64,000 nucleotides of DNA from Bacteroidota bacterium (lineage in GTDB: Bacteria; Bacteroidota; Bacteroidia; Flavobacteriales_D; Crocinitomicaceae). Location of the stretch: the NCBI GenBank assembly GCA_024280295.1, contig JAJRQK010000019.1, forward strand, positions 40,714 through 104,713, given 5' to 3'. Positions 55,188-61,837 of the stretch are shown here, one piece after another. The notes under the pieces were generated by a model. It saw nothing but the letters and a program-made list of their open reading frames with translations, did no database searches and was not told the origin of the DNA. The translations under genes were made by a program, and so were the position numbers. The stretch's first letter is position 1. Each line of letters starts with the position of its first letter.

Positions 55188-55652
55188 CTACGATAACAAT
55201 CCTTGCCTAGCAATAAATTCTAGTTGCTTATTAGCCTTTTCAAGCGCGATTATGAGTTGCTCATTTTCTTTTCTCAACGAATAAATTTCGTAAGCTTGCT
55301 TAATCACAAGTAATAAATCTTGCGCATCCCATGGTTTGGCTATATAGCGATATACTTGTCCTTGGTTAATCGCTCCTATAATAGCTTCGATATCTGAATA
55401 GCCAGTGATTAGTATCCGAATTGTATCAGGATATTCATTTTTTAACTTTGAAAGGAACTCTACACCAGTCATATTTGGCATTCGCTGATCAGATAATACT
55501 ACTTGAATATTGTTTTCTTTCATTATCTCCAAACCTAAAGAGGCACTTTCTGCAACATGAATAGTAAATTCTCTTCGGAAAGTTGCTTTAAACGATGTTA
55601 GGTTGTGTTTTTCATCATCGACATATAAAACATGTATATCTGGGCTGTTCAT
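55188..55652 (-). CDS. Response regulator (receiver domain, RpfG/HupR-like) with short C-terminal coiled coil
   Basis: Start trimmed to MNSPDIHVLYVDDEKHNL; VVLSDQRMPNMTGVEFL, RILITGYSDIEAIIGAINQGQVYRYIAKPWD. Confidence 0.92.
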   Translation of the reverse strand: MNSPDIHVLYVDDEKHNLTSFKATFRREFTIHVAESASLGLEIMKENNIQVVLSDQRMPNMTGVEFLSKLKNEYPDTIRILITGYSDIEAIIGAINQGQVYRYIAKPWDAQDLLLVIKQAYEIYSLRKENEQLIIALEKANKQLEFIARQGLLS

Positions 55653-55768
55653 AGGAGGGGAGTTAGCAAATGCAATTAGCACAATAGAGCAGGAAAATAC
55701 GAATAAATTGCCGAATTATTTAAACTGTAAACGATATTCTGATCTATCGCCGACAGTTGATTGGCATA

Positions 55769-55791
55769 TTCAACTGAAATTTTCAGTTGAA
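55769..55791. promoter_or_regulatory. Perfect palindrome, candidate operator
   Basis: TTCAACTGAAA-T-TTTCAGTTGAA; extra CAGTTGA half-site at 55754-55760; lies between divergent genes. Confidence 0.65.
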
Positions 55792-55826
55792 AATTGATTT
55801 ATATAGATTAAGAATTAACAAATGAT

Positions 55827-55834
55827 TATCTTTG
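55827..55834 (+). promoter_or_regulatory. Candidate -7 box (TATCTTTG) of the ThiF-nitroreductase operon
   Basis: Matches TAnnTTTG; no clear -33 TTG at ideal spacing, so tentative. Confidence 0.3.
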
Positions 55835-58882: not shown

Positions 58883-58953
58883 AAAATCATACTAATTAAG
58901 ATTAATTTCTTACTTTAGCGTTCACTAGCTGAAGAACTTCCCGTTGAATTATT

Positions 58954-61095
58954 ATGAAAATCGGATACATTCTTACCACTTGGTTAATTACTACTTTCTG
59001 CTTGCATTCTAATGCAACTGGTTACTATGACTTCACGTCGAATAGTTCTAATGATTTTATTGGCAAAAGTATTCTGATTTTTGAAGACAAAACAGCGCAA
59101 TTAAACATCATGGAAGTGTTAGCTTCCTCAAAATTCAAGTCTTCCAGGTCAAAAGTCCCGTTTTTAGGTATCACAAACTCTAATTGGTGGCTTAAGTTTG
59201 AAGTGGGAAATTCAAGCGATAAGAATTTAATTTATCTTACACTAGATCAACCAACTATTGATTTTATAGACTTTTATGAACTCAAGCAAGATGGAACTTA
59301 CAACCAAATCGAACTTGGTGAATACAAACCTTTTACAGATCGAGTATTCAAACATCAAAAATATATATTCAAACTAAACATCAAGCCAGGCAACAAAAAA
59401 CAGTACTTAATTCGATTGAAAAGTGGTGAGCAAATACTAGTGCCACTTAAGATAAGTTCTGGAGATGCCATGACTCAATCTTTACTTACAAATGATCTCT
59501 TCTACGGGATTTATATTGGTGTCATTCTAATAATGCTTGTATATAATTTATTTATATATCTATCTGTTCGAGATCCTGCTTACATATGGTATGTCATTTA
59601 TATTTTGTTAGTTGGCCTCACTCAAACATCTTTAACAGGTTATACACATAGATTCCTTTGGCCTAATAATCCTTGGATAGCAGAACAAAGCGTCTTCCTG
59701 TTCCCGTCGCTTGTTGGTGTAGCAGGAATTTGGTTTATGAAGGTGTTTTTACATACAAAAGAACATGTTCCTAAACTAGATAAAGTAATTTATGTCTTTA
59801 TAGCACTCTCTTTAGTGAACATCGTATTGGCAATTATGGGGCTGCATAATTTGAGTCAACAAATGATTCAGATAAATGCCATGTTAATTTCTTTTTACAT
59901 GATATTTGTGTCAGCTGTAATTTCTCGGAAAGGATACCGGGCAGCACGTTTCTTTTTGTATGCATGGATCATTTTCTTGATTGGAGTATTCATTTTCGTA
60001 TTAAAAGATATTGGAGTACTTCCATACAATCAACTAACAATATTTATGATGCCAATAGGTTCAGGGATTGAAGTTGCATTGCTATCCCTAGCTCTAGCCG
60101 ATAGAATTAATATCCTTAAAAAGGAAAAAGAAGAATCTCAAGAACAAGTATTATTAACTACAATCGAAAATGTTAGAATAATTAAAGAACAAAACAGCGT
60201 ACTTGAGCATCGTGTGAAACACAGAACGCTAGAATTAGAAAAGTCGAATGAAGAGTTAAGTGTTACTTATTATGATTTAAAGCACACTCAATCGAAACTC
60301 GTAGAATCAGAGAAAATGGCATCATTGGGTCAGTTAACCGCAGGGATTGCGCATGAAATCAATAATCCAATCAACTTTGTAACAGCAAATGTTGAACCAC
60401 TCAGAAGAGATATTAAGGATATTATTTCACTAGTTTCGAAATACGGAAATTTGGATCATGACAAAGATCTTGATGCTCAAATTGAAGAGATAAATAAATT
60501 TACTGAAGAATTAGATCTCAGTTTCTTGAAAATCGAAATGGATGAACTTATTTCTGGTATCGCGGAAGGAGCTAATAGAACTGCCGAAATTGTTAAAGGA
60601 CTTCGAAACTTCTCAAGACTCGATGAGGGGGATCTTAAATATGCAAATATTAACGAAGGCATCAAATCAACATTAAAAATTCTAGAAACTAGAACAAATG
60701 AACTGGAGATAGATGTAGTTCTGAAATTATCTCAAATTGATGCTATTGAGTGTTATCCAGGTAAGCTAAATCAGCTATTTATGAATCTATTATCAAATGC
60801 CATTCAAGCTCTTGAATCTAATTTAATCGGTGATCGTCAAATAGTTATTGACACCAAAGAAATCGATAATAGTATCGAAATCAAAATAAAAGATAATGGA
60901 GTCGGAATGTCTGAAGGAACTAAAATCAAAATTTTTGAACCTTTTTTCACAACTAAAGATGTCGGAGAAGGTACTGGTTTAGGACTTTCAATTGCGTATA
61001 GCATCGTAGAAGTGCACAAGGGGTCGATAGTTGTGGAATCTAAAGTTGGAGTAGGTACTGAATTTATTATCAAAATTCCGATGCAGTTCGCATAA
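58954..61095 (+). CDS. 7TMR-DISM sensor histidine kinase
   Basis: Extracellular 7TMR-DISMED2-like domain, 7 TM block, HisKA MASLGQLTAGIAHEINNPINFV, HATPase NLLSNAIQAL, IKDNGVGMS, GEGTGLGLSI. Confidence 0.93.
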   Translation: MKIGYILTTWLITTFCLHSNATGYYDFTSNSSNDFIGKSILIFEDKTAQLNIMEVLASSKFKSSRSKVPFLGITNSNWWLKFEVGNSSDKNLIYLTLDQPTIDFIDFYELKQDGTYNQIELGEYKPFTDRVFKHQKYIFKLNIKPGNKKQYLIRLKSGEQILVPLKISSGDAMTQSLLTNDLFYGIYIGVILIMLVYNLFIYLSVRDPAYIWYVIYILLVGLTQTSLTGYTHRFLWPNNPWIAEQSVFLFPSLVGVAGIWFMKVFLHTKEHVPKLDKVIYVFIALSLVNIVLAIMGLHNLSQQMIQINAMLISFYMIFVSAVISRKGYRAARFFLYAWIIFLIGVFIFVLKDIGVLPYNQLTIFMMPIGSGIEVALLSLALADRINILKKEKEESQEQVLLTTIENVRIIKEQNSVLEHRVKHRTLELEKSNEELSVTYYDLKHTQSKLVESEKMASLGQLTAGIAHEINNPINFVTANVEPLRRDIKDIISLVSKYGNLDHDKDLDAQIEEINKFTEELDLSFLKIEMDELISGIAEGANRTAEIVKGLRNFSRLDEGDLKYANINEGIKSTLKILETRTNELEIDVVLKLSQIDAIECYPGKLNQLFMNLLSNAIQALESNLIGDRQIVIDTKEIDNSIEIKIKDNGVGMSEGTKIKIFEPFFTTKDVGEGTGLGLSIAYSIVEVHKGSIVVESKVGVGTEFIIKIPMQFA

Positions 61096-61117
61096 GTTAA
61101 ATATATTGGACAGGGAA

Positions 61118-61837
61118 ATGAATAAATCATCAAAAATATCAATTCTTTATATTGATGACGAACATATTAACTTGCTCGCTTTTCGGGCTAATTTTAGGCG
61201 TGAATACGAAGTGTTTACTGCTGTGTCAGGAATTGAGGGAAAGGCTTTAATTGAGCAGAATGATATAAAAATTGTTGTTGCTGATCAGCGAATGCCAAAG
61301 ATGACAGGAATTCAATTTTTTGAGTGGATTAAAGAAGACCACCCAAACACTATTCGAATATTACTAACTGGCTTTACAGATGTCTCTGCTGTAGTCGATG
61401 CAATCAATAAAGGACAGGTTTATTCTTATATTTCTAAACCTTGGGATGAAGAAGAGTTAAGAGGTACGTTTGAAAAAGCATTTAAAGAACATCAGAGAAA
61501 GGCTTACTCATTGAGTATTGAGTCACGTTTCAATCAGCTGTTTGACTATTCATCGGATGCTATTCTTGTAATGAATGAAATTACAGGGATCGTCAATGCC
61601 AATAAAGTTGCATTGGAACTTTACAAGTATGAGTTAGATGAAATAGGAACTATTCCGCTCGATCAGCTAGTTATAAATGTGAATAATTTTGAAGAGCTGA
61701 TGAAGGTTTTTCTTTCAGGATCTGGAGAAATAATTGATAAATTTCAACGCAATATTTCGTGCGATTTTTCAATTATGAAATTTGACCCTCATGCCGATTC
61801 GTCAGAATTCTTTCAAGTTTTGATAAAAAAAACATAG
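61118..61837 (+). CDS. Response regulator, receiver + PAS domain
   Basis: ATG at 61118; ILYIDDEHINLLAFRANFRREYEVFTAVSG, VVADQRMPKMTG, QVYSYISKPWDEEEL; PAS-like RFNQLFDYSSDAILVMNEITGIVNAN. Confidence 0.9.
   Translation: MNKSSKISILYIDDEHINLLAFRANFRREYEVFTAVSGIEGKALIEQNDIKIVVADQRMPKMTGIQFFEWIKEDHPNTIRILLTGFTDVSAVVDAINKGQVYSYISKPWDEEELRGTFEKAFKEHQRKAYSLSIESRFNQLFDYSSDAILVMNEITGIVNANKVALELYKYELDEIGTIPLDQLVINVNNFEELMKVFLSGSGEIIDKFQRNISCDFSIMKFDPHADSSEFFQVLIKKT

Follow-up and report, generated by a model that had tools for sequence, protein, structure and literature searches.

Positions 55188-61837 of a 64,000-nucleotide stretch of DNA from a member of the Bacteroidota (contig JAJRQK010000019.1; the whole stretch is called the window below) carry five genes, which we read as a self-contained synthase-receptor cassette for N-acyl amino acids, in which the product of the encoded enzymes would be the ligand of the histidine kinase encoded beside them. 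We put the probability of this reading at roughly 0.6. The gene identities, the family memberships, the fold, the co-occurrence of the genes and the exchange of the tailoring gene are established here, and the cassette points to a system of chemical communication or self-sensing that has not been described before.

All five open reading frames (ORFs) were confirmed with the positions, strands and spacing given in an earlier note on this DNA. Four co-directional genes encode a ThiF-nitroreductase fusion, an N-acyltransferase, a 7TMR-DISM sensor histidine kinase and a response regulator with receiver and PAS domains (RR2). The first two overlap by 11 bp, the next gap is 72 bp and the last about 22 bp (taking ATG 61118 as the start of RR2). 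The gene of a receiver-only response regulator (RR1) is divergent from them.

This neighbourhood is conserved well beyond close relatives, in many Bacteroidota families. All 15 of the 15 TrzS-type Bacteroidota loci obtained by family search, the window included, have the acyltransferase and the 7TMR-DISM kinase. The reverse search was made with the acyltransferase profile alone; among GTDB representatives it gave 426 relatives, of which the best 80 were kept, and 100 further loci were fetched from genome sampling and annotated. Coupling was counted in the 153 loci whose flanks reach 4.5 kb or more on both sides, and the locus sets overlap somewhat. The kinase lies on the same strand in 152 of these 153 loci and a receiver protein is present in 151; a short receiver occurs in 133 (on the opposite strand in 117) and a long one in 126. 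The sole locus without the kinase (L220) is a divergent acyltransferase-ThiF pair. Complete cassettes with distinct acyltransferases number 134, in 104 clusters at 80% identity. In the canonical order RR1 points away from ThiF, acyltransferase, kinase and RR2, and exactly the arrangement of the window was found in 60 loci. The gaps within the operons have a median of 3 bp (n = 517) and are 30 bp or shorter in 425 of 517 cases, while the flanking genes differ between loci. Since each of 12 sampled cassette genomes has 1-4 7TMR-DISM genes, simple arithmetic gives a random gene about a 1% chance or less of lying near one. A neighbourhood due to chance or confined to a lineage, with no functional link behind it, has in its favour only the usual caution that operons can be co-inherited. 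It is refuted by the kinase coupling over so many families with differing flanks and such short gaps, and its probability is negligible.

The distribution of the cassette is uneven. The acyltransferase, mostly in single copy, was found in 13 of 399 genomes sampled across the phylum, in 76 of 396 from the class of the window and in 114 of 299 from its order. The carriers include the culturable genera Pedobacter, Sphingobacterium and Mucilaginibacter. In the genus of the window two of 15 sampled genomes have the cassette (G000 and G473, against 13 others); it is therefore patchy and probably often gained or lost. Three draft genomes of the order (L236, L246, L252) have the kinase or the acyltransferase split into several frames, apparently cassettes broken by decay or by sequencing error. 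A metagenome-assembled genome of Azovibrio restrictus (L128) holds a cassette very similar to that of a Bacteroidota locus (L138); contamination of the proteobacterial bin by a foreign contig is the most likely cause, rather than a transfer.

A sequence search of solved structures with the acyltransferase (58205-58882, forward strand, 225 aa) returned nothing meaningful, and therefore fold comparison was needed. In the Pfam scan there was no match to the LuxI-family (autoinducer synthase) model, and Acetyltransf_1 matched only weakly, under the cut-off (17.8 bits). The AlphaFold2 model (pLDDT 95.4) is closest to the N-acyl homoserine lactone (AHL) synthases and FeeM, in agreement with the GNAT/LuxI-like identity that had been proposed from the letters. 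The top 16 matches in the PDB are BjaI, FeeM, RpaI, MesI, EsaI and TofI, with generic GNATs ranking behind. Template modelling (TM) scores in this group reach 0.66 of the query, and for FeeM 0.80 of the target, at identities of 12-15%. BjaI, RpaI and MesI are coenzyme A (CoA)-dependent AHL synthases, and FeeM is an N-acyl amino acid synthase. A viral structure library gave generic GNATs and one phage AHL synthetase and was uninformative. The profile also matches actinobacterial TrzA-type proteins encoded beside Rhodococcus TrzS (hhalign probability 92.8, E 4e-7, 182 columns). Judged by sequence and fold, the protein is the N-acyltransferase partner of the ThiF fusion, a remote homologue of TrzA-type proteins and a predicted N-acyl amino acid synthase.

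The 781-aa ThiF-nitroreductase fusion (55870-58215, forward strand; a start at ATG 55873/55876 is more likely than at the ORF edge 55870) reaches 745 bits over residues 22-770 with NF005901, the Rv1355c family, whose curated cut-off is 476. Pfam detects the ThiF domain at 49.8 bits and the nitroreductase part weakly, at 15.7 bits, under the cut-off. The CD motif of ThiF, in the region of TrzS Msmeg Asp217, aligns with TrzS of Mycolicibacterium and Rhodococcus and is present also in unfused ThiF proteins. In the oxidase region, at the putative place of TrzS Msmeg Arg540, the window has DKFRF and the mycobacterial relatives compared have DRIRF. Rv1355c is TrzS and makes N-acyl oxazolones; TrzS homologues, in vitro and in vivo, cyclise the N-acyl tryptophan made by TrzA with ThiF and ATP and then desaturate it with the flavin oxidase and O2 (PMC12856293). 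The OxzAB and TyzABC pathways are related to this one (PMC10404671), and acylation, cyclisation and desaturation have all been demonstrated for homologues (PMC12856293, PMC10404671). By its family match the window fusion is a member of the TrzS/OxzB oxazolone synthase family, a known enzyme kind, and oxazolone production is predicted for it. The enzyme pair can thus not be called undescribed, as the earlier note had it, since the TrzS chemistry of Rv1355c is known (PMC12856293).

Several other arrangements of these genes were seen. In Mycobacterium tuberculosis trzAS is flanked by cyclic di-GMP (c-di-GMP) genes (PMC12856293), and on two Rhodococcus plasmids (L078, L080) a GGDEF-domain gene adjoins the TrzA-type and TrzS genes, an echo of these neighbours; these two cases therefore give a link of the chemistry with signalling in a second phylum. 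Two Streptomyces plasmids (L076, NZ_CP109497; L077, NZ_CP109451) have a TrzS-type ThiF without oxidase, 41-44% identical to the ThiF part of the window, beside a KASIII-like gene or an Acetyltransf_3 GNAT with a MerR regulator; these are apparently other uses of the TrzS-type ThiF clade. One metagenome contig (L083, 4025-7042) has a single 1006-aa ORF joining ThiF-oxidase and acyltransferase, possibly a natural fusion of the pathway, with an assembly artefact as the alternative.

The ThiF gene was not found in 26 loci, and nearly all of them have another gene between acyltransferase and kinase. The substitutes are a class I S-adenosylmethionine (SAM) methyltransferase (~254 aa), an oxidase linked to flavin adenine dinucleotide (FAD) and a membrane protein of the ICMT family, a family of carboxyl methyltransferases; one locus (L201) has no tailoring gene and another (L205) ends at the contig end. 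The 153 full-flank loci divide into ThiF with oxidase (76), ThiF alone (54), methyltransferase (18), ICMT (2), FAD oxidase (2) and none (1). On the acyltransferase tree these labels take 17 changes by parsimony, several of them forced by well-supported branches, with kinase and receivers retained; one Sphingobacteriaceae clade mixes the methyltransferase, ThiF-oxidase and ThiF types. Because the chemistry of ThiF and of ICMT acts in both cases on the carboxylate, the common step may be that this group is masked in an N-acyl amino acid. The masked product would be a neutral, AHL-like compound. For the methyltransferase variants the product class is likely the N-acyl amino acid methyl esters (NAMEs), which have been likened in structure to AHLs (PMC11580390); no receptor for NAMEs was reported in the literature searched.

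The kinase (58954-61095, forward strand) has a signal peptide, a periplasmic DISMED2 domain, a seven-transmembrane (7TM) bundle and a HisKA-HATPase core. Its Pfam matches over the cut-off are 7TMR-DISM_7TM (190.8), 7TMR-DISMED2 (114.5), HisKA and HATPase, and the top fold match of its model is the RetS periplasmic domain (TM 0.82 of the target). The kinase motifs of the cassette kinases are intact and strongly conserved, and in a tree with further 7TMR-DISM kinases from the cassette-carrying genomes the cassette kinases form one group with moderate support (77/82). The periplasmic sensor domain is the most variable and fastest-evolving part of the cassette, with a mean identity of 15% against 46% for the kinase core, as is expected where a domain follows changing ligands. 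For the 7TM bundle, Wntless, which is an acyl-binding protein, came up as a weak fold match (E 4e-4, TM ~0.3). This match and the enrichment of tryptazolones in cell pellets (PMC12856293) would suit a membrane-lipid or intracellular role, in which the acyl amino acids serve as lipids with a structural or redox function, the kinase monitors the state of the membrane and the linkage reflects a shared envelope function. We consider such a role quite improbable, as the nearest solved folds of the acyltransferase are signal synthases and FeeM, not acyltransferases of lipid pathways, and the patchy occurrence of the cassette is unlike a housekeeping lipid pathway.

RR1 (55188-55652, reverse strand; PF00072, 75 bits) consists of a receiver. 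Its ORF is open to 55682 (55188-55682), and 154-aa homologues favour the start at ATG 55652. Two tandem copies of RR1 stand beside the cassette in Pedobacter loci (L087, L090-L092, L094, L096-L098 and others). RR2 (61106-61837, forward strand, ATG likely at 61118) is by Pfam a receiver with PAS in the window, as it is in the sister genome, the kinase part being absent; the 238-aa form occurs also in a locus of the same genus (L062). Elsewhere RR2 is mostly a receiver-HisKA-HATPase (~361 aa) or a receiver-PAS-kinase (~460-510 aa). The earlier note had called both receivers RpfG-like: they do resemble the receiver part of RpfG/NosR-type proteins, without HD-GYP or any other output domain. An RpfG-type HD-GYP output through c-di-GMP is ruled out, as neither RR1, RR2 nor the scanned homologues have the HD-GYP domain. 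No DNA-binding domain was found by Pfam in any cassette regulator scanned; the output therefore lies outside the cassette, which is the main gap in the synthase-receptor model, and the cassette does not look like a simple regulator of the operon that it forms.

The main rival explanation, which we hold to be unlikely, is that a two-component system controls a metabolite. The kinase would sense something else, such as envelope stress, a carbohydrate or the redox state, and the regulators would govern how much is made, or what use is made, of an acyl amino acid or oxazolone that serves as antibiotic, lipid or stress metabolite and is not the ligand. The RetS-like sensor domain of the kinase would suit this, as would the induction of oxazolone production by sub-inhibitory antibiotics in gammaproteobacteria and the stress links in M. 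tuberculosis (PMC12856293). Against it, the scanned cassettes have no DNA-binding regulator, unlike usual operon-specific two-component systems, the sensor domain diverges fastest, and the chemistry of the product changes repeatedly while the receptor stays. Four points favour the product as ligand: the sensor evolves fast, the cassette encodes no transcriptional output, the acyltransferase has the fold of a signal synthase, and the chemistry of the product has changed repeatedly.

If the product is the ligand, how would the cassette work? We infer its substrate, export, ligand binding, phosphotransfer and biological output as follows. The LuxI/FeeM-fold acyltransferase would attach an acyl chain to an amino acid, with acyl-CoA as the probable donor. 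In the window the ThiF domain would activate and cyclise the N-acyl amino acid to an azlactone, which the flavin oxidase would desaturate to an oxazolone, and in other species the methyltransferase probably makes its methyl ester. The neutral, AHL-like acyl amino acid derivative would be sensed by the kinase, either at its periplasmic DISMED2 domain or within the 7TM bundle. Through the divergent RR1 and through RR2, which is usually a receiver-kinase, the kinase would then signal to targets that lie outside the cassette. The whole would work like LuxI/R or CqsA/S. A broader proposal, to which we give even odds, is that the Bacteroidota have a widespread quorum-sensing type of their own, in which an N-acyl amino acid, made by a LuxI/FeeM-fold enzyme and masked differently from species to species (azlactone/oxazolone or methyl ester), is read by a 7TMR-DISM kinase and each tailoring swap makes a new chemical dialect.

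A number of observations weigh against the product being the ligand. DISMED2 domains of the RetS type are generally regarded as carbohydrate-binding. The mirror-tree partial correlation with the acyltransferase is 0.21 for the sensor, 0.19 for the 7TM part and 0.50 for the kinase core; it is not specific to the sensor and therefore does not discriminate between sensing of the product and of another cue. Kinases of the receptor family occur also apart from the cassette: genomes negative for the acyltransferase hold related kinases of up to 330 bits (G797). A kinase kept through tailoring swaps could also respond to a cue further upstream, or to no more than the acyl-amino-acid part that the products share. 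Finally, tryptazolones are mostly intracellular, which does not speak for an extracellular signal, though acyl-tryptophans are found mainly in the supernatant (PMC12856293). Of the signal-synthase and receptor reading given in the earlier note, the conserved coupling, the tight packing and the fold like that of AHL synthases and FeeM stood, while the enzyme pair proved to be already known.

The divergent intergenic region (55653-55872) contains TATCTTTG at 55827-55834, which we take to fit the Bacteroidota TAnnTTTG promoter element, and an inverted repeat with 10-bp arms, TTCAACTGAA-ATT-TTCAGTTGAA, at 55769-55791, a possible operator candidate. This palindrome is absent from the other cassettes examined, and its half-site has 4 matches against a shuffled mean of 2.6; an operator conserved among cassettes was thus rejected. 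Scans for sigma-70 promoters and terminators yielded no more than shuffled sequence.

In the open-access literature, searched also for 7TMR-DISM proteins with quorum sensing or acyl signals, we found no description of the cassette, and the papers on TrzS, TyzABC and stieleriacines do not mention histidine kinases; its novelty is provisional to this extent. The novelty is the coupling of a synthase to kinase and receivers, not the enzyme pair. We know of no well-characterised acyl-signal system of the Bacteroidota's own, and if the kinase binds the product, the cassette would be a new synthase-receptor signalling type for this phylum; the natural swaps of tailoring enzymes would then be built-in specificity experiments. 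The physiological role of N-acyl oxazolones has been posed as an open question (PMC12856293), and a constant, dedicated receptor kinase by the synthase makes it directly testable in culturable genera.

It remains to compare the cassette with known systems. TrzAS of Mycobacterium and Rhodococcus, OxzAB of Pseudoalteromonas rubra and TyzABC have, like the window, a ThiF-oxidase fusion of the same family beside an N-acyltransferase, and the chemistry is presumably the same; no dedicated receptor kinase has been described for these known loci. In contrast, the cyclase/oxidase of the Bacteroidota cassette can be missing or replaced, whereas the 7TMR-DISM kinase and the receivers are constant. The AHL synthases LuxI/BjaI and FeeM are the best structural neighbours of the acyltransferase; the cassette differs from them by the low identity (12-15%), the lack of a LuxI Pfam match and a membrane kinase in place of a LuxR-type receptor. 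The RetS/SagS-type kinases share the DISMED2, 7TM and histidine kinase architecture. They are orphan hybrid kinases and are not known to be encoded beside a synthase. SagS has been reported to respond to glucose-6-phosphate (PMC8544897). With CqsA/CqsS and LqsA/LqsS-LqsR the likeness is one of organization, for there too a signal synthase is encoded with its cognate membrane histidine kinase and response regulator, but the synthase fold, the signal class and the sensor are different, the cassette having a 7TMR-DISM kinase with periplasmic DISMED2.

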